Below, one piece after another: positions 19,443 through 30,182 of a DNA stretch of 54,686 bases. The notes below the pieces were generated by a model, which was not told the origin of the DNA, made no database searches, and was given only the letters and a program-made list of their open reading frames with translations. This DNA comes from Bacillota bacterium (GTDB lineage Bacteria; Bacillota; Sulfobacillia; Sulfobacillales; Sulfobacillaceae): NCBI GenBank assembly GCA_021797825.1, contig JAJZZA010000018.1, positions 1-54,686 of the forward strand. The letters are read 5' to 3'. The first letter of the stretch is position 1. Each line of letters starts with the position of its first letter. A program made the position numbers and the translations under genes.

Positions 19443-19772
19443 CTATCCCGAGCGCAGCAAATCCTTGATGGCCACGCGAATCTGCTCCGCGTCCAAAGCC
19501 TCATCGCTAATCGAGACCATGCACTCGGCCACGCTGCAGGCGCTGACGATGCGGGCCACCTGCTTAATCGCGCCTTCTACCGCCGACACCTGGGTCAGCA
19601 CGGACTGGCACGGCTCAGCGCGTTGCACCATGCCTTCCACCCCCCGCACCTGGCCTTCGATGCGGCGAAGCCGCCGAATCATGTCGTCCACGTCCCAAAA
19701 TACCGGGCGGGGCATTGCGGTAGGATTTTTCAATGATTTCGGCCTCGCTTTCTTTTTTGCTGCAGACAACAT
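19443..19772 (-). CDS. CsoR/CstR-family repressor, persulfide-sensor type
   Basis: A 109-aa four-helix repressor (DUF156). Core: DMIRRLRRIEGQVRGVEGMV, CQSVLTQVSAVEGAIKQVAR and SACSVAECMVS. Copper CsoR proteins have Cys-His-Cys. Here Cys55 and Cys84 are kept but the His between them is not present (sequence ACSVAEC), matching the two-cysteine CstR type that senses persulfides. That fits its place beside a sulfur-oxidation operon. Start is uncertain: the ATG at 19772 has no close ribosome site, while a perfect AAAGGAGG precedes an ATG at 19798 in another frame (see separate entry). A matching operator-like palindrome lies at 27571-27593. Confidence 0.88.
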   Translation of the reverse strand: MLSAAKKKARPKSLKNPTAMPRPVFWDVDDMIRRLRRIEGQVRGVEGMVQRAEPCQSVLTQVSAVEGAIKQVARIVSACSVAECMVSISDEALDAEQIRVAIKDLLRSG

Positions 19773-19798
19773 GCCCGGTTGCCAGCCGCCTTCACCAT
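19730..19798 (-). other. out-of-frame leader or indel at the start of the CstR-like gene
   Basis: AAAGGAGG plus a 7-nt spacing leads to an ATG at 19798 that encodes only 22 codons before TGA at 19730, overlapping the repressor gene in another frame. One additional A in the A6 run (plus-strand T6 at 19753-19758) would join this start to the repressor frame. It may be a sequencing or assembly indel, a mutation, or a real leader. Confidence 0.5.
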
Positions 19799-20147: not shown

Positions 20148-20612
20148 CTAGATAAAGAGACTGATCTTGGCGTCGCGGGCAAAATCCAAAAACGTGGCCG
20201 CGCCCACCACGTCTTCCACCTCCGGCAACAGGTCTTCGCGCTTGACCCCGAGGACATCCATGGACATTTGGCAGCCCACCAGGTGCACGCCCATTTCCTT
20301 CGCTGTGGCCACAAACTCGCGAATGGTCATCACGTTGGACTTGGCAAACTGTCCTTTCATCATATTCGACACCACGCGCGTCCCCCCGGGCACCGCGCCC
20401 ACCACCTTGGCCATGGCCGGAACTCCCGGATTGGCGGCGACCGATACCTCCAAATTGTCAACCTTGTGCCGGTTGATGATGTCTAACCCCCAAAACGTGA
20501 AAAACAGCATGCACTCCATATCCATCGCCGCCGCCGCGGTCGCCAATATAAACGGCGGGTAGGCCATGTCCAAGGTGCCTTTGGAAATCACAATCGCCAT
20601 GCGATCCTGCAT
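20148..20612 (-). CDS. dsrE2: DsrE2-like sulfur-carrier/transferase
   Basis: A 154-aa DsrE/F-fold protein. MAIVISKGTLDMAYPPFILA is the first strand and helix, followed by a hydrophobic segment MLFFTFWGLDII. The conserved sulfur-binding cysteine is Cys114 in LVGCQMSMDVLG, and a second Cys34 lies in MECMLFF. CQMSMDxxG is characteristic of DsrE2, which in sulfur oxidisers works with TusA and rhodanese to move sulfane sulfur. AAAGGAGTG precedes the ATG; an extension to 20663 is not needed. Last gene of the leftward sHdr operon, after a 251-nt gap. Confidence 0.92.
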   Translation of the reverse strand: MQDRMAIVISKGTLDMAYPPFILATAAAAMDMECMLFFTFWGLDIINRHKVDNLEVSVAANPGVPAMAKVVGAVPGGTRVVSNMMKGQFAKSNVMTIREFVATAKEMGVHLVGCQMSMDVLGVKREDLLPEVEDVVGAATFLDFARDAKISLFI

Positions 20613-20863
20613 CTTCAGCACTCCTTTGCAAAATGTGTGGAGCCCATTTCCGTCGACCGGCACGCCGTCAACCTGTTGGTCGCCTCATCCCAACCCTTTT
20701 CCCGGTCATCTCCGCCTGCCGATGCAGCAAGATATGACCCCCGGTGCCCGCCTGAACCGGTCCCAACCGTTTTCGCCGGGTGTCCATCGCCGTCGCCGGG
20801 ACCATCAGGCCCGCGCGGTCCCCGGTCGCCCCCCGGCCACGCCGGGACACGCAGGCACCGCCC

Positions 20864-21130
20864 TTAGGCACGCTTTTGGGCGGCAAAACGCTCGAGAAAA
20901 CCGACCGCGGTTTTGCGATCAATGGTCCCCACATGCACGACCTGATTGTTGACGATGGTGCTGGGGACGCTGCGGATATAGAGCTTGACGGCCAGCTCGC
21001 GCCCCTCCAGAGTGCCCACGTCCACTTCACGCACCGAAAAATCGTACGTTTTGGTCAGGTCCTGCCATTGCCTGATGGTAGCCGGACACGTGGCGCACCA
21101 TTGCGATGTCGCCACCAGCACTTCGAGCAT
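20864..21130 (-). CDS. thioredoxin-like protein of the sHdr operon
   Basis: An 88-aa thioredoxin-fold protein starting MLEVLVATSQWCATCPATIR with the redox pair Cys12-Ala-Thr-Cys15, the cis-Pro segment RSVPSTIV, and a helical end. It is shorter than classical thioredoxin (about 105 aa). The ATG at 21130 follows AGGGGGAAACC, 11 nt after lbpA stops. In this place it could reduce the lipoyl disulfide of LbpA or persulfides on DsrE/TusA; this is inference. The upstream open frame to 21520 overlaps lbpA and is not real. Confidence 0.85.
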   Translation of the reverse strand: MLEVLVATSQWCATCPATIRQWQDLTKTYDFSVREVDVGTLEGRELAVKLYIRSVPSTIVNNQVVHVGTIDRKTAVGFLERFAAQKRA

Positions 21131-21141
21131 CAGGTTTCCCC

Positions 21142-21582
21142 CTAACTGCACCGCATGCACTGAATCTTTTCCGCCTGAATCTTTTCGCGATATTGTCGAA
21201 TGGCTTCCGGGCCGGTCACCAGATGATCCCACGACTGGCCGGGATCGGGCTCCAAACGGACCACCCAGGCCGTGCCGTAGGGATCGATGTTGAGCAGCGC
21301 CGGCTCGTCGCGCAGGCGCGCGTTCGATTCCAACACCACTCCGTCCAACGGGCTCACCAGCGGACCGGCCCATTTGCCGCTTTCCAGCGAGCCGAGCGAA
21401 CGGCCTTTTTCGACGCGGGTTCCCGGCTTCTTGGGACGCACGAAGAGAATGCGCCCGGCCAAGGTTTGAGCGGGGTCGGTCATGCCAACCCACACCACCG
21501 CCCCGTCGGGGCGGGCCCAAACGTTGTTGGTCAAATCATAATACAAGTGCTCGGGAACGTCGCATCCCTGAATCTCGGCCAT
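21142..21582 (-). CDS. lbpA: lipoate-binding protein LbpA (GcvH-like), copy 1
   Basis: A 146-aa GcvH-like protein. The lipoylated lysine is Lys70 in SLGSLESGKWAGPL. ESGKW, rather than the ES(V)KA of glycine-cleavage GcvH, is typical of LbpA from sulfur-oxidising sHdr systems. The rest (TDPAQTLAGRILFVRPKKPG, VSPLDGVVLESNARL, GPEAIRQYREKIQ) keeps the barrel fold. LbpA is thought to carry sulfur or C1-S intermediates on its lipoyl arm to the sHdr complex. No glycine-cleavage genes are near. A second copy lies at 27774. The start is ATG 21582 with a G-rich ribosome site. Confidence 0.92.
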   Translation of the reverse strand: MAEIQGCDVPEHLYYDLTNNVWARPDGAVVWVGMTDPAQTLAGRILFVRPKKPGTRVEKGRSLGSLESGKWAGPLVSPLDGVVLESNARLRDEPALLNIDPYGTAWVVRLEPDPGQSWDHLVTGPEAIRQYREKIQAEKIQCMRCS

Positions 21583-21636: not shown

Positions 21637-22560
21637 TTAGACCAGGGCGGGCTTCGGCGCGGCCTGCAAGAGACGCCGGATGACGTCGAACGAACCCGAT
21701 TCCATGTCCTTTAAATACGCCGCCTCGGGCGAGTGCCCGAACGCGACGGCCACCAGCTGGGTGTAGTAGACCACCGGCAGTCTGGCGCCTTCGCCCGCCG
21801 CCTTGATGGCGCGGGGCTGCAGCGCATCGAGCCCGCCGGCGCATTTGGGACACATCAAGGCCAGCACATCGGCTCCCGCCTCTTTGGCCTGGCTCAGGAT
21901 GCGTCCGGTCAGTTTGCCGGCGGTGCGCTCGTCCGAGAGGAGGTTTTTCCCCCCGCAGCAGGTGGTTTCCGCCGGATGCGCGACGACCGCCGCCCCCAAC
22001 GCGCGCAACACGTCGTGCATGAAATGCGGCCGTTCGGGGTCCTCCCCCGCCACTTGGATGGAGCTGACCATGGCCCCCGGACGGTGATACAAGCAGCCGT
22101 AATAGGGCGCGACGCGAAGACCCGTCAAGGGGCGTCTAACCCGCTGCGCTATCTTGTCCAGACCGACCACGGTGACCAGGTACTCCAAGGTGTTGCGTAC
22201 CGACGGGGTCTCGGTAATCCCGGGCTCTCCCGCCGCCTCCAGCATGCGGTTGATTTCGGTCCCGACGGATTCGTTGCGGCTCCAGGCGTAGGCCGTGCGG
22301 GACAGTTCGTGATAGCACACGTTGCACGACACCATCACTTCGGTTTGCCCCTGCTGCAGCAGATGCCCCAGGTTGCGCCCCGGCAGATAGTGGCTTTTTA
22401 ATCCCTCTCCCTTTAACTCCCCCACGCCGCAACAGGCGTAATCCTCAACCTCGACCAGGTTAAGACCCAAGTCGCCGGCCACCAGGCGGGTGCTGACATC
22501 GTACGCGCGGTCGATGGTTTTCAACGAACATCCGGGGAAATATGCTGTCTCGTGGCTCAT
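21637..22560 (-). CDS. hdrB2: sHdrB2, CCG-domain heterodisulfide reductase-like subunit
   Basis: A 307-aa protein with two CCG (DUF224) domains that bind non-cubane [4Fe-4S] clusters: YFPGCSLK...YACCGVGE...SCNVCYHEL in the first half, YYGCLYHRPG...TTCCGGKN...MCPKCAGGLD in the second. This is the canonical HdrB layout. In sulfur oxidisers it is part of the cytoplasmic sHdr complex that oxidises protein-bound sulfane sulfur. AAGGAGG precedes the ATG. It follows hdrC2 by 24 nt and precedes lbpA. Confidence 0.94.
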   Translation of the reverse strand: MSHETAYFPGCSLKTIDRAYDVSTRLVAGDLGLNLVEVEDYACCGVGELKGEGLKSHYLPGRNLGHLLQQGQTEVMVSCNVCYHELSRTAYAWSRNESVGTEINRMLEAAGEPGITETPSVRNTLEYLVTVVGLDKIAQRVRRPLTGLRVAPYYGCLYHRPGAMVSSIQVAGEDPERPHFMHDVLRALGAAVVAHPAETTCCGGKNLLSDERTAGKLTGRILSQAKEAGADVLALMCPKCAGGLDALQPRAIKAAGEGARLPVVYYTQLVAVAFGHSPEAAYLKDMESGSFDVIRRLLQAAPKPALV

Positions 22561-22584: not shown

Positions 22585-23274
22585 CTACGCTTCGGATCCC
22601 AACACCTGACGGTTCTTGCGCCAGCGGTGGGGGCGCCCCATCCGCAGCGTCTTCAAGACCCTCCCGTCGCCCACCATCTTCAGCGCGGTTTTTTTCATCT
22701 CCGGAGCAAACAGCTCGTTTTGCCGCCCCAAGGCGCGTAGGAAAGTCGTTTGCAACAGCGGTAAATTGAGCCGTCCCCGGCTGATCAAGTGGTTCCGGTA
22801 GACTTGGTGGTTGACGTGAAAGGCGCGGTCCATGCGCTCCGGCACCACCGTCCGCAGCCATTGCCCGATGGTTTCAATCACCTCGGCGGTGTTGACCTCT
22901 TTGGGGCAGTGGTGCGTACAAATGTAGCAGCCGACGCAGCGCCACACCACGTCCGCCTGATTCTTCAGCTCTTCGGTCCTGCCGGTTCGCACCCAATAAA
23001 TAAATTGGCGGGGATTAAAGCCCTCGACTTCATGGGCCACCGTGCACCCGGCCGTGCACATGCCGCACTGAATGCAATTGTCGATGCTGGTTGCCACCAG
23101 GTTTTGGCGCACCGTGTCCCAGGCATCCAGATCCCGGTCGGCGTGGACCCGGCTTTTCAGCATGGTGTTCCAGCGTCCCGAGACATCGATGCCGTCCATG
23201 ACCAGATTTTCGTGCTCCAAAATGTGGTCGTCCTGCACCAGGGACCGCTCTATGATTCCGGCACCCTTGGGCAT
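22585..23274 (-). CDS. hdrC2: sHdrC2, 2x[4Fe-4S] subunit
   Basis: A 229-aa protein with two ferredoxin-like motifs: CIQCGMCTAGCTV (Cys67, 70, 73, 77) and CVGCYICTHHCPKE, which bind two [4Fe-4S] clusters. Helical elsewhere, with no membrane segment, so it is soluble. It should relay electrons between HdrA and HdrB2 in the sHdr complex. A very strong ribosome site (TTAAGGAGGT) precedes the ATG. The C-terminal tail is basic (GRPHRWRKNRQ). It sits 36 nt after the hyp gene. Confidence 0.94.
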   Translation of the reverse strand: MPKGAGIIERSLVQDDHILEHENLVMDGIDVSGRWNTMLKSRVHADRDLDAWDTVRQNLVATSIDNCIQCGMCTAGCTVAHEVEGFNPRQFIYWVRTGRTEELKNQADVVWRCVGCYICTHHCPKEVNTAEVIETIGQWLRTVVPERMDRAFHVNHQVYRNHLISRGRLNLPLLQTTFLRALGRQNELFAPEMKKTALKMVGDGRVLKTLRMGRPHRWRKNRQVLGSEA

Positions 23275-23310: not shown

Positions 23311-24105
23311 TCACCCGAGATTGTCGACGGGGATCCCGGTGGGAACCGCTTCGGGCGGAATCGGAATTCCCAGCAGGTGGGCCATCACCCCAAGCACCGT
23401 GGGAATGGTGGAAAAAATGGATTTGGAGGTGGTGAAGTACATCTTGTAAAGATAGTCCGAATACAGGTACGCCAACACCACATCCAGCGAAAACGCGCCG
23501 AACTTGGCCAAACCGCGGTCTTTCAACACGCCTTCCAGCGCCTTCAGGCGCATGCCTAATTCCTGGTAGTTGGCCCCAAACGCATAAAAGCGGTCCTGGC
23601 CGTTTAGCCCCGGCTGATTGCTGAACTCCATCAGATACGGCAAGGCCCCGGTTCCCGTCTTCCACGAGAAAATCCACTTGCTCATCACGGGATAATGGCG
23701 CGGGGAGTGCAGGTGCAAAAACTCCAGGGCCAGCTCGTAGGCGCTGCCGTGCGTGAGCATGGGCAGGCTCCGCGCAAACGCCTCGAGCCGGTCCTCGACC
23801 GGGTCGTCGCTCTTAACCAAGGCGACCAGGTAGACCTTAAGCCGCGAGAGCCCGCCTTCGCGTTCCACCAGCGGCAGCGAGCGCCGGCCGCTCCCCAGCA
23901 GCTGCAGGGCGTCACGCCACTCGCTCTCCGGCGTCCACGCCATTTCCCGCAGACTGGTCAGCGCCCGAAGCCGCTGGTTGGCGTGGATAAGCCGGGACAC
24001 CAAATCGTCGACCGGAATCCCCGCCAGATTGGTTTGCACCATTTCCCACACGCCATCCATCCGGTCATCAGTCAGGCGGCGGGTGAAATCTTCGACCTCG
24101 TTCAT
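23311..24105 (-). CDS. conserved sHdr-locus protein Hyp
   Basis: A 264-aa protein placed between hdrA and hdrC2, the position of the conserved 'hyp' gene of shdr loci. It is helical and lacks cysteine clusters, P-loop and signal peptide. Recognisable stretches are LPLVEREGGLSRLKVYLVAL, YELALEFLHLHSPRHYPVMSKWIF and LDVVLAYLYSDYLYKMYF. Its ATG overlaps the hdrA stop as ATGA, with AAGGTGA before it, so it is probably translated together with HdrA and may be a complex component. The function is unknown. Confidence 0.88.
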   Translation of the reverse strand: MNEVEDFTRRLTDDRMDGVWEMVQTNLAGIPVDDLVSRLIHANQRLRALTSLREMAWTPESEWRDALQLLGSGRRSLPLVEREGGLSRLKVYLVALVKSDDPVEDRLEAFARSLPMLTHGSAYELALEFLHLHSPRHYPVMSKWIFSWKTGTGALPYLMEFSNQPGLNGQDRFYAFGANYQELGMRLKALEGVLKDRGLAKFGAFSLDVVLAYLYSDYLYKMYFTTSKSIFSTIPTVLGVMAHLLGIPIPPEAVPTGIPVDNLG

Positions 24106-25145
24106 ACCGTCACCTTGCTATCGAGATAGCGGAGCACGGCCATCGCAGCCACCTCACCCTCCATGACGGAATCTTCGATGGTTTTCGGCCCGCTGGCGGC
24201 GCCCGCCACAAACACGCCGGGATGACTGGTCACCGACGCGTTTTCCATCGGGCGCGTCTGCTGAAAGAAGCCGTGCGGCTCCCGCTCGATTCCGAACTGG
24301 GCGGCCAGCTCCGCCGTCGCCTCGCCCGGTTCCATCCCCGCCGCCAGCACCACCAGGTCAAACTCCCATTCGAACGGCCCTCTGACCAGGGTGTCCTCGC
24401 CCTTTAACACCGGCCGCCCGTCGCGCTGGGTGATTTCCGCCACGCGGCCCTTGACGTAGACCACGCCGGCGTCTTCTTGCGCCCGCCAATAGAGTTCGTC
24501 TTCCCACAGGCCGTAGGTCCGCACATCCATGTAAAACATCACGAGCCGCGCCCCCGGCAGCTGTTCGCGCACTTCAATGCCCTGTTTGGCCGACACCGCG
24601 CAGCAGACCCGGGAACAATAGGTGTTGCCGACTTGGCGGTCGCGCGAACCCACGCAGTAGATAAAGGCGACGGACTTCGGCACCTCACCGGTGGACGGCC
24701 GCGTGACCGGACCCGACGCCATCATTTCCTCCAACTCGGCGCCGGTAATCACGTCGGGAAACAATCCGTAGCCGTACTTGGTGTCCCGGCGCGGGTCAAA
24801 ATGCGTAAACCCGGTGGCAAGCACCACCGCCCGCACGGATTCGACTCCCGTCTCGCGACCCAAAATCTCCACCTGAAATCCGTCGTCGGTTTCCTCAACC
24901 TGTCCGATGCGCGAGCCGGTGCGGATGTGGATACGGGGGTTTTCCGCCACCGCGCTCACCATCCGGTCCAGCACCGCCGGCCCGCTGTCAAAATGGGGCA
25001 TTAACACTTGATACCGGTGACGGGCGACGGCCCCGCCCAGATAGGATTCCTGCTCTACCAAGGTCACCTCTAGCCCAAATCGGGCTAGCGATTCGGCGGC
25101 CCGTAATCCCGCTGGCCCTCCCCCGACAACCATGACGTTGGTCAT
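24102..25145 (-). CDS. hdrA: sHdrA, FAD- and Fe-S-containing subunit
   Basis: A 347-aa flavoprotein, shorter than methanogen HdrA (over 600 aa), as usual for sHdrA. The FAD/NAD fold starts MTNVMVVGGGPAGLRAAESL, with VVLATGFTHFDP and GVFVAGAASGPKTIEDSVM. The HdrA iron-sulfur motif is YCVGSRD...TYCSRVCC. It lies at the centre of the sHdr complex that oxidises sulfane sulfur. The start is ATG 25145 with GGGAGG upstream; the frame continues open to 25625 but that part overlaps hdrB1. Stop overlaps the next gene by ATGA. Confidence 0.94.
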   Translation of the reverse strand: MTNVMVVGGGPAGLRAAESLARFGLEVTLVEQESYLGGAVARHRYQVLMPHFDSGPAVLDRMVSAVAENPRIHIRTGSRIGQVEETDDGFQVEILGRETGVESVRAVVLATGFTHFDPRRDTKYGYGLFPDVITGAELEEMMASGPVTRPSTGEVPKSVAFIYCVGSRDRQVGNTYCSRVCCAVSAKQGIEVREQLPGARLVMFYMDVRTYGLWEDELYWRAQEDAGVVYVKGRVAEITQRDGRPVLKGEDTLVRGPFEWEFDLVVLAAGMEPGEATAELAAQFGIEREPHGFFQQTRPMENASVTSHPGVFVAGAASGPKTIEDSVMEGEVAAMAVLRYLDSKVTV

Positions 25146-25210
25146 CGCTATGCCTCCCTGCCTTGATTTTCCACCGCTTGCTTGCACACCCGCCTGCTTC
25201 TCGCCTTCGC

Positions 25211-26416
25211 CTAGACCATCGGCAGCGGATAGAGCTGGTCGGGCGCCTTGCCCGCCTTCAGTTCCTCCAAATAGCTCTCGTACTGCTGTTTGGAAGTCCG
25301 CCAGTCGATGCCGATTTTGTCCAGCAGCTTCTCCCAGCCGGCGGTGTGCCACTGCAACTGCGCCACTTTGTACGGATCGGCGCCAGCCAGCAACGCGGCG
25401 AACTGAACGTCGGCCATGACCGGGAGCTCGTAATCGTACCCGTGCGCCTTGCCGATCCATTGATTCTTGTCGAGCGTGGTGGTGCAGCCGGTATCTTGCG
25501 TGATGGCCACGTCCGATTGGGCTTCCTCGACCATCACCTTGATCTTTCTTTCCAGCGAAAAGGATCGGGAGAACTCGCGCTCGGTCAGGATATGGCGGAA
25601 TCCGAAGCCGCAGCAATCGTACCACGTCGAATAATCACGGACTTGCGCGCCGAGTTCGAGCAGAATGGCGGTGGTCGGCGCCGGCCGTTCGCCGCCATAG
25701 ATGCTGCCGTCGTAAATGACATCCTCGGGGATCATCTTCCAGACGTGGCAGGCGGGATGCACGGTCGCCACCACATGCGACACGTCATAGATTTTCATCG
25801 CCGCCACCTCCTTGCGGAGAACATGCAGCCACTCGCTGTAATGGACGATTTCCTCCGGAATAACCAAATCCCGCCCGACCTTGTTCATGATGCGGCGCAC
25901 TTCGTCGCGCAGTTCCTGATGCTCGACCAGCAAGTTCCGGATTTCCTTGTAGTTGCCGAACGAGGTGCCGCAGTGGATTAAGGGGTAATAGCCGGTCTCA
26001 TAGGCCCGGTGCCAATTTCTGACCGCCACCGCCGCCAGCGCGACGAGATTGGAGGTGCCCGAGCCATGGTAGTTCCAGGCGGTGCAGCTGGTTTGGTGGG
26101 TTTCATCGAGATACTCTAATCCGAGACGGTTCATAAACCACATGATGCTGGTGGGATAGCCGGGAATGTTGCCGCATTGCCCGCAGGACTTGTGATGCCA
26201 GAGCTTGTTGGTCGGGATGCGCTTGCTGCGGCCCAACAGCGTCTCCACCGTGATCGGCCGGTTTTCCTCGGTCATGTGGATGACCGTGACCTCGCCCTTT
26301 TCCTCCAATTCTTTGAGGTGTTCGCGCGGATCCTCCGGGTTTTGATGCTGAATCGCCCGTTTGTCCACTTTGGTGGTCACAAAGTCCCAGCCTGTTGTCT
26401 TAAGTTCGGTAGGCAT
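25211..26416 (-). CDS. hdrB1: sHdrB1, CCG-domain subunit (long form)
   Basis: A 401-aa protein, longer than HdrB2. The first CCG domain is degenerate: CGQCGNIPGYPTS and SCTAWNYHGSG replace the CC pair by SC. The second domain keeps DCCGFGFRH with an earlier HPACHVW and a later TGCTTT. Only one full non-cubane cluster set is therefore evident, as known for sHdrB1. The N-terminal 75 residues are an extra region. AAGGAGAGG precedes the ATG; it is 35 nt after hdrC1 and 65 nt before hdrA. Confidence 0.93.
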   Translation of the reverse strand: MPTELKTTGWDFVTTKVDKRAIQHQNPEDPREHLKELEEKGEVTVIHMTEENRPITVETLLGRSKRIPTNKLWHHKSCGQCGNIPGYPTSIMWFMNRLGLEYLDETHQTSCTAWNYHGSGTSNLVALAAVAVRNWHRAYETGYYPLIHCGTSFGNYKEIRNLLVEHQELRDEVRRIMNKVGRDLVIPEEIVHYSEWLHVLRKEVAAMKIYDVSHVVATVHPACHVWKMIPEDVIYDGSIYGGERPAPTTAILLELGAQVRDYSTWYDCCGFGFRHILTEREFSRSFSLERKIKVMVEEAQSDVAITQDTGCTTTLDKNQWIGKAHGYDYELPVMADVQFAALLAGADPYKVAQLQWHTAGWEKLLDKIGIDWRTSKQQYESYLEELKAGKAPDQLYPLPMV

Positions 26417-26451: not shown

Positions 26452-27162
26452 TCAGCGTGCACGAGCCTCTTCGACCGACTCGCGCAGTTCTTCCACCATA
26501 TCGGCCACCACCTCATAGAGGTTGGGGTCGATCTGTTCGATCAAGCGGAACACGCCGGTCTCCTCGTAAATGGTGTAAAGCTCGTAGGATGTCTCCGGCG
26601 ACACCCGCCACGCCGAATTGGTCACCTGCAAGGTATAGACCGGGATGGCCTGGCGCTTTATCGCCAGGTCCGTCGAACTCCAAGGAATTTTGGGTCCCCA
26701 GTCGGGAAAGAAGTCCGGCTGGATCATATCCGGCGTCAATTGGTTGCCAATCGACAAAACCTTCAGCAGCACCCGCCCATAGGGCTTTAACAAACGATGG
26801 ACGGCTTCCATGCCGCGCCATACGGCGACCTCCCGCATAATCATGACGAGACCGCCCGGCGAATTATGCAAAGGACAACGCATCGCGCAGGTGTAGCACT
26901 GGGCGCACGCCCAGATGTATTCGTCCATCATGCCCTTGACCGCCTCGGCGTCGCCCGACAGCAGGGTTTGCACGACAATGCGCGGCGAGTAGTCAAAAAA
27001 CCGGTGGGACGGGCACGATCCGCTGCATACCCCGCAATTCAGGCAGCCGTGGATGGCTTCGTGATAGCGCACGTCGCTTTGGATGGCGTGCAACAGACTT
27101 TCGGCATCTTGGATGCCGACTTCGTCAGGGTCGAGCTTCAAATGCGTTTCGGTCGGGTTCAT
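26452..27162 (-). CDS. hdrC1: sHdrC1, 2x[4Fe-4S] subunit
   Basis: A 236-aa soluble protein with two [4Fe-4S] motifs, CLNCGVCSGSCPS (Cys40, 43, 46, 50) and CAQCYTCAMRCPL, about 45 residues apart, followed by a helical C-terminal half with no membrane span. It pairs with HdrB1 in the sHdr complex. GGAGGGAGAG precedes the ATG. It is 21 nt downstream of the dsrE-like gene and 35 nt upstream of hdrB1. Confidence 0.93.
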   Translation of the reverse strand: MNPTETHLKLDPDEVGIQDAESLLHAIQSDVRYHEAIHGCLNCGVCSGSCPSHRFFDYSPRIVVQTLLSGDAEAVKGMMDEYIWACAQCYTCAMRCPLHNSPGGLVMIMREVAVWRGMEAVHRLLKPYGRVLLKVLSIGNQLTPDMIQPDFFPDWGPKIPWSSTDLAIKRQAIPVYTLQVTNSAWRVSPETSYELYTIYEETGVFRLIEQIDPNLYEVVADMVEELRESVEEARAR

Positions 27163-27183: not shown

Positions 27184-27555
27184 TCAACTCAAATACACCA
27201 CCCGGTCGGCCGCCAAAATCTCTTCATGCAGGTCGGCCGCTCCTATCCACTCCAACGGCCACGGGCCATCCTCTAGGGGATCAAGGCGCACCATGGGCAA
27301 ACTAAGACGGCAGCCCAGCAGCTGAACACCCCGTGCGACCGCCATATCAATGAAGTCGGCCAGCGTCTTGCCGCTTTGGTCCAACGCGTTGACCTGCCGG
27401 GCAAAACCCTCCTCAAAAATTGAAAGCCCGGTCTGGGTAAATGCAATGGCGGCCTCATGGTCCATCGAACGCGCGGTGGTGGCGAGAAAAAACACCGTAA
27501 AGCAGCGTTCGGGATTTTCGCGCCCTCGGGTTTGAACGTAAAGAAATTTTGCCAC
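27184..27555 (-). CDS. DsrE-family (DsrE3-like) sulfurtransferase, copy 1
   Basis: A 123-aa DsrE-fold protein from a GTG start (27555) with a strong CAGGAGG site. MAKFLYVQTRGRENPER is the first strand; VFFLATTARSMDHEAAIAF is the helix-strand unit. The sulfur-binding candidate is Cys82 in VQLLGCRLSLPM; Cys18 is a second one. First gene of the leftward sHdr operon, behind the palindrome at 27571-27593. It is a paralogue of the rightward protein at 28671. Confidence 0.88.
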   Translation of the reverse strand: MAKFLYVQTRGRENPERCFTVFFLATTARSMDHEAAIAFTQTGLSIFEEGFARQVNALDQSGKTLADFIDMAVARGVQLLGCRLSLPMVRLDPLEDGPWPLEWIGAADLHEEILAADRVVYLS

Positions 27556-27570
27556 CGTTGCCTCCTGTCC

Positions 27571-27593
27571 AATACCCTTCCCCGCAGGGTATT
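27571..27593. promoter_or_regulatory. CsoR/CstR-type operator candidate
   Basis: A perfect inverted repeat AATACCC-9-GGGTATT, 15 nt before the GTG of the first sHdr-operon gene. CsoR-family repressors bind ATACC(C)-rich...GGTAT palindromes, and a CstR-type repressor is encoded at the far end of the same operon. Binding would block transcription or the leader of the operon. Confidence 0.65.
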
Positions 27594-27773
27594 AAACAAC
27601 CCATCCCAAAAAACCGACTTCTTACTAAACTCTGTAAGTTCATAAGTTACTATAAAATTCACCCTGGGGACAACATAGGGCCATTTGGTCCCATAAGGGA
27701 TGGGCCATTCGGCCCTGTCGGGGCCGTCCGTTTTCCCAAAAAATTTTGACATAAACCTTTTGGGGGTTAGCTT
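27594..27773. promoter_or_regulatory. divergent sulfur-locus promoter region
   Basis: AT-rich DNA between the two sulfur operons. GTAAGTTCATAAGTTAC (27634-27650), a tandem TAAGTT repeat, abuts a TATAAA on the plus strand. On the minus strand TTGTCC (27675-27670) with an 18-nt spacer and TAACTT (27651-27646) is a weak promoter candidate. Two tandem copies of GGGCCATT(T/C)GG (27678-, 27702-) form small hairpins. CCCAAAA-16-TTTTGGG (27735-27764) can pair next to the G-rich ribosome site of lbpA2. Confidence 0.5.
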
Positions 27774-28214
27774 ATGGCCATTGTATCGAACTGCAATGTC
27801 CCCGAGGACCTATTTTATTGGGTGGAAAAGCATGTCTGGGCACGCGTGGCCGGCGATCTGATTGAGGTCGGAATCACCGACGCAGCCCAAACCCTGGCCG
27901 GTAAGGTATTGGTTTGCCGGATCAAAAAACCGGGCAGGGCGCTTAAGCGGGGCAGCAGCGGGGCAAGTTTGGAGTCCGGCAAGTGGGTCGGCGGGGTCAG
28001 CACCCCCGTATCGGGCATCTTGGAGGAAACAAACGGGGAAGCCGAAAGTTCCCCGGAAATCTTAAACCAGGCGCCCTATCAAAGCTGGTTGTTTCGGATC
28101 CGGCCCGACAACTGGGACCAGGATAAAGCGCTATTGGTAACCGGTCAGGCGGCGGTCGACGCCTACCGCGAGAAGATTGCGGCGGATAACATCCCCTGCC
28201 AGGGGAAGACCTGA
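27774..28214 (+). CDS. lbpA2: lipoate-binding protein LbpA (GcvH-like), copy 2
   Basis: A 146-aa paralogue of the protein at 21142-21582, same length and with the same modified lysine, Lys70 in GASLESGKWVGG. Other shared parts: CNVPEDLFYWVEKHVWARV, TDAAQTLAGKVLVCRIKKPG, and AAVDAYREKIAADNIPC. It has a Cys in the barrel (VLVCRI) that copy 1 lacks. The ribosome site is GGGGG, close to the ATG and partly inside an inverted repeat. First gene of the rightward operon with tusA, a dsrE-like gene and the lipoate ligase. The two copies may serve different sHdr states or growth conditions. Confidence 0.93.
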   Translation: MAIVSNCNVPEDLFYWVEKHVWARVAGDLIEVGITDAAQTLAGKVLVCRIKKPGRALKRGSSGASLESGKWVGGVSTPVSGILEETNGEAESSPEILNQAPYQSWLFRIRPDNWDQDKALLVTGQAAVDAYREKIAADNIPCQGKT

Positions 28215-29045: not shown

Positions 29046-29120
29046 TACCGCACGGCCTATCCCGTGATTGGGCCAAGCAGCGCCCGGGATAGTCACGCCG
29101 GTCAAGGAGCCGAGACCGTT

Positions 29121-30182
29121 ATGCGCCACATCGATTTGCACACCGCGGCGGTTCCGCGTTCAATGGCCGTGTTTCACGCCATCGGGACGGCCGCCGACCG
29201 AGATGACGAGATCACGCTGGTCACCGTCCGACCGGCCGCAGCCTTCGTCTCGGTGGGATATCACCAACTGGCCAGCCGGGAAATCCGGGCGGATTATTGC
29301 CGCGCCCGGCAGATCCCGGTTTGCCGCCGGATGGTCGGGGGCGGCGCGGTATTGCTCGATCCCGGACAGGTCTTTTGGCACCTTATTCTGCCGGGAGGCC
29401 GCGCCGCGATTTCCGATTTGTACGCCGCGCTGCTGCCCGCCCCGGTGGCCGTCTACCAGCGCCTGGGCGTGCCGGCCGAGGCCCGTCCGCTTAACGACAT
29501 CATGGTGGGCCCCAAAAAAATTGGGGGAACCGGGGCCGCCACCATCGGCCAAAGCCTGATCTTTGTCGGAAGCCTCATGTTTGACTTTGACCGCGAATTG
29601 ATGGCGAAGGTGCTCAACGTGCCGTCAGAGAAATTTCGCGACAAGATGGTGCAGTCCCTAAAGGACTATATGACCACCCTGCACGACGAATTGGGCGACG
29701 GCGCCCCGTCCCCGGCGGAAGCGGTCGCGCTCCTGGTTGAGGAGTTTTCCAATCTGCTGGACAGCCCCGCCCACAGCGGCACCCTCACCGAAGAAGAGGA
29801 GCGGCTCACCCGGGAGTTCGAAGACTCCTTGTTCGATCCCGGTTTTGTCTTTCAGGACGAAGGATGGTTTGAGGACCGCGTCAAGATCCGAGACGGCGTC
29901 TATCTTTATGAAGGACTGGCCAAGGCCCCCGGCGGCCTCGTGCGGATCATTTGGCAAGACGATCACGGGCTGCTTAAAGACGTCTGGATCGGAGGCGACT
30001 TCACACTCGAGCCCGCCCGGGCGCTGGAGGTTCTAAAGGAACGCTGGAAAGGCCAACCGGCCGATTTAGCCGGCCTGCGCCGGCATGCCGAAGCGGTCTT
30101 CGCCGAATTGGGCGTGGCGGGACTGACGGTGGACGACCTGATGGCGGCATTCGCGCACCCCGAGCGCCTGGCCGCTCCCTAA
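29121..30182 (+). CDS. lipoate-protein ligase sLpl(AB)-type
   Basis: A 353-aa ligase that should attach lipoate to LbpA. N-terminal part: FVSVGYHQLASREI, CRRMVGGGAVLLDPGQVFWH (the RRxxGGGAVxxDxG motif), DIMVGPKKIGGTGAA with the conserved Lys, and FVGSLMFDFD. The C-terminal about 110 residues (YLYEGLAKAPGGLVRIIW, LKDVWIGGDFTLEP, LEVLKERWKG) match the LplB-type accessory domain fused in cis. Position after two lbpA genes supports a sulfur-specific ligase rather than a housekeeping one. The start MRHIDLHTA at 29121 follows AAGGAG. Confidence 0.92.
   Translation: MRHIDLHTAAVPRSMAVFHAIGTAADRDDEITLVTVRPAAAFVSVGYHQLASREIRADYCRARQIPVCRRMVGGGAVLLDPGQVFWHLILPGGRAAISDLYAALLPAPVAVYQRLGVPAEARPLNDIMVGPKKIGGTGAATIGQSLIFVGSLMFDFDRELMAKVLNVPSEKFRDKMVQSLKDYMTTLHDELGDGAPSPAEAVALLVEEFSNLLDSPAHSGTLTEEEERLTREFEDSLFDPGFVFQDEGWFEDRVKIRDGVYLYEGLAKAPGGLVRIIWQDDHGLLKDVWIGGDFTLEPARALEVLKERWKGQPADLAGLRRHAEAVFAELGVAGLTVDDLMAAFAHPERLAAP

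Follow-up and report, generated by a model that had tools for sequence, protein, structure and literature searches.

A conserved palindrome ahead of an sHdr operon in Sulfobacillaceae is a putative operator of a CsoR-family repressor

A 23-bp palindrome, AATACCCTTCCCCGCAGGGTATT, occupies positions 27571-27593 of the window (the whole stretch of DNA analysed, 54,686 nucleotides) and precedes the first gene of an sHdr sulfur-oxidation operon. With a probability of roughly two in three, it is the operator for a CsoR-family repressor that responds to sulfur through its thiols; this repressor is most likely the product of the csoR gene at the 3' end of that operon. This reading is based on a site core kept in three genera, the linkage of csoR to the operon, a related motif in paralogous (type-B) operons, a complementary distribution of a winged-helix gene, the family match of a repressor that lacks the metal-ligand histidine, and the precedent of TTHA1953.

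The hdrC1B1A-hdrC2B2 set, lbpA and the lipoate ligase gene of an sHdr locus are all present. The minus strand carries, in this order, dsrE3C-like, hdrC1, hdrB1, hdrA, hdrH, hdrC2, hdrB2, lbpB, thioredoxin, dsrE2 and CsoR-family genes; lbpA, a dsrE-like gene and a lipoate ligase gene are transcribed divergently. The relevant features are as follows.

27571-27593, no strand: palindrome AATACCCT-N7-AGGGTATT, proposed CsoR-family operator
27573-27591: TACC-N11-GGTA core conserved in genomes G012 and G001; its minus-strand sequence is TACCCTGCGGGGAAGGGTA
27561-27565, minus: GGAGG ribosome-binding site of the first operon gene, read from the sequence
27184-27555, minus: dsrE3C-like gene, first of the operon, GTG start (PF02635/PF13686)
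26452-27162, minus: hdrC1
25211-26416, minus: hdrB1
24102-25148, minus: hdrA
23311-24105, minus: hdrH-like gene of unassigned function, without Pfam match, named from its operon position
22585-23274, minus: hdrC2
21637-22560, minus: hdrB2 (PF02754)
21142-21582, minus: lbpB, lipoate-binding GcvH-like protein (PF01597)
20864-21139, minus: thioredoxin-like gene (PF13192)
20148-20663, minus: dsrE2 (PF13686; NF047629 below cut-off); the true start may be an ATG near 20612
19443-19772, minus: csoR-family repressor gene (C55, C79, C84; PF02583), last of the run
27774-28214, plus: lbpA, first gene of the divergent operon
29064-30182, plus: lipoate-protein ligase gene (lpl) of the divergent operon, here not followed by a winged-helix gene
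27677-27716: another conserved element in the region that separates the divergent operons, made up of the imperfect palindromes AGGGCCATTTGGTCCC (27677-27692) and GGGCCATTCGGCCCT (27702-27716) in tandem

The initial annotation had described an AATACCC/GGGTATT palindrome just before the first sHdr-operon gene. Its position was confirmed, and the arms turned out to be one pair longer (perfect arms of 8 bp, spacer of 7 bp). On the minus strand the palindrome reads AATACCCTGCGGGGAAGGGTATT, followed by GGACAGGAGGCAACG and the GTG start at 27555, so that it lies upstream of the GGAGG and 15 nt from the start codon; the gene that begins there is dsrE-like and not an hdr gene. The genome scan proposed at the same time was carried out on the 3.59-Mb genome and yielded a single exact copy, the one at 27571-27593. 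With up to two mismatches allowed, six sites were found for the palindrome and four for a reversed control pattern; hence, a regulon sharing the palindrome sequence is not visible in this genome. When the 218-bp intergenic region was dinucleotide-shuffled 2000 times, an equally good palindrome (arms of at least 8 bp, spacer of up to 12 bp) turned up in 148 of the shuffled versions (7.4%), and about two dozen palindromes of this quality exist in the 54.7-kb window. Taken alone, the palindrome is therefore weak evidence. No sigma-70 promoter was recognised at the palindrome, which counts against the operator reading. A terminator was also considered and ruled out, as the stem lacks a T-run 3' of it on either strand.

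A search among 61 related genomes for orthologues of the window operon (type-A loci) yielded 12 such loci, and 34 genomes of the family were covered; the named relatives are Sulfobacillus and Bacillota metagenome bins. Close to the start codon, the leader of the same gene contains TACCAAACCGGGTGGGGTA in G012 and TACCCTACGGGGTTAGGTA in G001, which represent two other genera. Common to these two leaders and that of the window is TACC-N11-GGTA, and all three sites are of the form TAC-N13-GTA. The core occurs eight times in 638 kb of loci, three times in the leader of this very gene; at that rate, the chance of finding it in a given 60-bp leader is about 1 in 1300. It is absent from nine of the 12 type-A loci, eight of which belong to Sulfobacillus (genus g8) and one to another family (G035). 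The comparison with relatives thus gives good support to the palindrome as a credible CsoR-type operator. The proposal of such an operator in the initial annotation stands on this three-genus core, on related sites at csoR-adjacent paralogous promoters and on a distribution complementary to that of the winged-helix gene, both described below. The Sulfobacillus loci (L008, L010-L016) have a TTGTGA-N6-TCACC site upstream of dsrE3C that looks CRP/FNR/Rex-like by eye, and several of them carry the inverted repeat TTGGTTCGAAAGAACCA about 42 bp before that gene.

In the window as in G012, the operon ends with the dsrE2-csoR pair; the G012 operon is distributed over two contigs (L065, L091) that both break inside lbpB, so that their join is presumed. 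After the thioredoxin gene of the complete Sulfobacillus and G035 operons, all of which lack the site, no dsrE2-csoR pair was found. The stretches read of type-A-like loci from distant phyla and archaea contain no csoR of the window kind. Each of the nine type-A loci that lack the TACC site has a gene for an unrelated 197-aa winged-helix protein directly 3' of lpl, while genome-wide searches retrieved no homologue of it in the window genome (G000), G012 or G001. The 9-to-3 split between winged-helix gene and site is exact and would arise by chance in 1 of 220 cases if the loci were independent; as eight of the nine winged-helix loci come from one genus, far fewer independent events lie behind it. 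This pattern supports the view that the CsoR-type regulator here may replace a different regulator used by Sulfobacillus. The winged-helix protein scored below every curated cut-off for a specific regulator. Its C-terminal part contains cysteine (L069, 19052-19645; equivalents in L067, L068 and L070-L075).

Many relatives possess a second, sHdr-like operon (type B) that starts with dsrE2. Of the 15 type-B loci read, 11 have a csoR of the same clade as that of the window near dsrE2, divergent and upstream; where the adjoining region was read, this csoR is the last gene in a short cluster of small hypothetical genes. In L078, one of these 11 loci, it is about 8 kb away from dsrE2. In the remaining four loci, the contig or stretch ends before the csoR region could be judged. 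Just 3' of the apparent -10 element, the dsrE2 promoter exhibits the motif WACCnRTACC[CG]GTAYnGGTGT, whose strict core is present in 10 and whose broad form in 14 of the 15 loci (shuffle means of 0 and 0.007, respectively); since these loci had also served to fit the patterns, the counts measure conservation and are no independent prediction. The corresponding site of the window genome, ACACCGGTACCCGTACCGGTGT (G000 contig C84:64497-64518; L088, L101), spans 22 bp with perfect 10-bp arms and is single-copy. TACC-N11-GGTA as such does not occur in the csoR-dsrE2 intergenic regions of type-B operons, which hold this related, differently spaced motif instead. The window site differs from it by one base in spacing and also in its core, and this counts against the operator reading. 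An arrangement that looks intermediate between the two, ATACC-N12-GGTAT with a GGGGG run, is found in L087 and L095 from another family. In L087, L094 and L095, a second copy of TACCCATACGGG lies further upstream of dsrE2, near the divergent gene, and may be a second operator. Locus L081 (G001:C210) has kept csoR, dsrE2 and the type-B motif; dsrE2 is directly followed there by a dsrE-like gene, so that the type-B hdr genes seem to be missing, and the contig ends nearby.

The predicted repressor matches PF02583 with an E-value of 1.1e-19 (71.1 bits; cut-off 22.8). It had been described as a two-cysteine CstR-type protein encoded at the far end of the operon; family and terminal position hold, whereas the protein has three cysteines (C55, C79 and C84), and the pair typical of its clade is C55/C79 and not the CstR-like C55/C84. 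In an alignment with Enterococcus faecalis CstR (7mq1) and InrS, C55 and C84 line up with the two cysteines of CstR, Ser80 occupies the position of the metal-ligand histidine, and C79 lies one residue before it. C55 and C79 are invariant among the correctly translated members of the clade while C84 is replaced in all others, which makes C55/C79 the likely ancestral pair. In the tree, the window protein groups with the type-B CsoR of G003 (76% identity) and the type-A CsoR of G012, at modest support (84/75). Such a topology is compatible with, though no proof of, a dsrE2-csoR cassette having moved from one operon type to the other. The gap of 375 bp between dsrE2 and csoR counts against csoR being part of the operon. 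A 22-codon frame with a strong ribosome-binding site (AAAGGAGG; 19730-19798, minus strand) overlaps the csoR start out of frame, and the start codon of csoR itself is uncertain.

The window genome encodes six CsoR-family proteins, any other of which could be the binder, a point against the assignment to the operon's own csoR. One of them, a second member of the clade, is 63% identical to the window protein. The operon of G001 has the site and no csoR; its next genes encode a protein that looks hemerythrin-like by eye and a DsrE-like one, and the clade csoR of G001 resides beside dsrE2 on another contig. The site may thus be served in trans, and linkage within the operon is not universal. These observations would fit a site bound mainly by another paralogue, for instance that of the type-B operon (C24), with the operon's own csoR product having some other target. 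We consider this unlikely given that the other two genomes with the site, the window genome and G012, have csoR within the operon.

CsoR-family control of sulfur-oxidation genes has a precedent in TTHA1953 of Thermus thermophilus, the nearest counterpart that has been characterised and a sox repressor which binds TACNNTAC-N4-GTANNGTA, that is, 8-bp half-sites whose outer TAC and GTA are 14 bp apart (PMC10318464). The window site shares the TAC/GTA dyad, with N13 in place of N14. If the centre is taken as 3 bp in place of 4 bp, a length settled on post hoc, the type-A sites agree with TTHA1953 at 10, 10 and 11 of 12 positions. The TTHA1953 gene is remote from the sox genes under its control, and the cysteines of the protein, C39 and C68, are 29 residues apart, whereas the window csoR belongs to an sHdr operon and the clade pair C55/C79 is 24 residues apart. 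CstR of Staphylococcus aureus and Enterococcus faecalis is similar in family, in lacking the metal-ligand histidine and in being encoded in one operon with sulfur genes; it controls sulfide detoxification rather than sHdr. Both positions of its pair C31/C60 (29 apart) are occupied by cysteines in the window protein (C55, C84), whereas the relatives of the latter have C79 and no C84. Copper-sensing CsoR proteins share the family fold, and their type-2 operators are TAC-N9-GTA dyads flanking G/C tracts (PMC3902906). The window site resembles these in its TAC/GTA inverted repeat flanking G/C tracts; all three type-A sites differ in having TAC-N13-GTA, which counts against the operator reading, and the copper-ligand set is missing from the window clade.

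In the mechanism that we propose, the TACC-N11-GGTA dyad would lie around the transcription start, beside the ribosome-binding site, and CsoR tetramers bound to it would prevent dsrE3C-hdrC1B1A-hdrH-hdrC2B2-lbpB-trx-dsrE2-csoR from being transcribed. Once sulfane sulfur accumulates, C55 would become bridged with C79, or with C84 in the window protein, by a disulfide or polysulfide; DNA affinity would drop and the operon would be expressed. With csoR as the last operon gene, the circuit would include negative autoregulation. What the sequences show directly is the site, its conservation, the linkage to csoR and the exchange of regulators; binding by CsoR, a transcription start at the dyad, the choice of paralogue and the co-transcription of csoR are predictions.

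A response to persulfide is plausible given the sulfur operon, the cysteine pair and the lack of a metal-binding histidine. TTHA1953 is released by disulfides that Cu(II) or H2O2 drive and not by NaHS (PMC10318464), so that we infer persulfide as the signal here by analogy with CstR and from the kind of operon controlled. The same precedent favours a CsoR-family operator with another signal, i.e. release by thiol oxidation (disulfide formation) or by a metal such as copper, and the relatives suggest that the source bacterium comes from metal-rich acidic settings. Such a signal appears improbable in view of the repeated association of the clade with sHdr and dsrE2 genes and of a metal-ligand position without histidine.

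Chance, or the site of an unrelated regulator, would be compatible with the shuffle frequency given above and with a core common to three leaders only. It is rendered very unlikely by the conservation of core and position in three genera and by the complementary distribution of the winged-helix gene. Least probable of all is a hairpin in the 5' leader RNA acting on mRNA stability or translation: the 23 nt fold with -9.2 kcal/mol (z -2.7) and, once the flanks are included, give a stem of 14 pairs immediately ahead of the ribosome-binding site (z -1.9), yet G012 and G001 keep pairing only at TACC/GGTA with uncompensated one-arm changes, so that what persists is protein-type half-sites only.

A CsoR-family operator at the palindrome would also bear on how sHdr regulation is built. 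The sulfane-sulfur-responsive two-cysteine repressors sHdrR and SoxR, which control the sHdr operon of Hyphomicrobium denitrificans, are ArsR-type proteins (PMC12423496, PMC10451225), a fold unrelated to CsoR. A CsoR-type circuit in Gram-positive acidophiles would mean that an unrelated family of repressors has also been recruited to control sulfur oxidation, and that operons have exchanged regulator modules. We tentatively extend this, at somewhat less than even odds, to a scenario in which Sulfobacillaceae and their relatives possess a distinct CsoR subclass with a relocated C-x23-C pair that controls sHdr operons via long TAC/GTA dyads; the dsrE2-csoR cassette would have moved in from the paralogous operon, displacing the winged-helix regulator still used by Sulfobacillus. 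The defined 23-bp site, the paralogous 22-bp site and the question of C79 versus C84 make these ideas testable.

The tandem palindromes at 27677-27716 read AGGGCCGAATGGCCC and GGGACCAAATGGCCCT on the minus strand. The element is kept in 11 of the 12 type-A intergenic regions (in G035, the portion read did not show it), and its tandem pattern matches almost exclusively type-A loci. It is present also where the winged-helix gene is missing.
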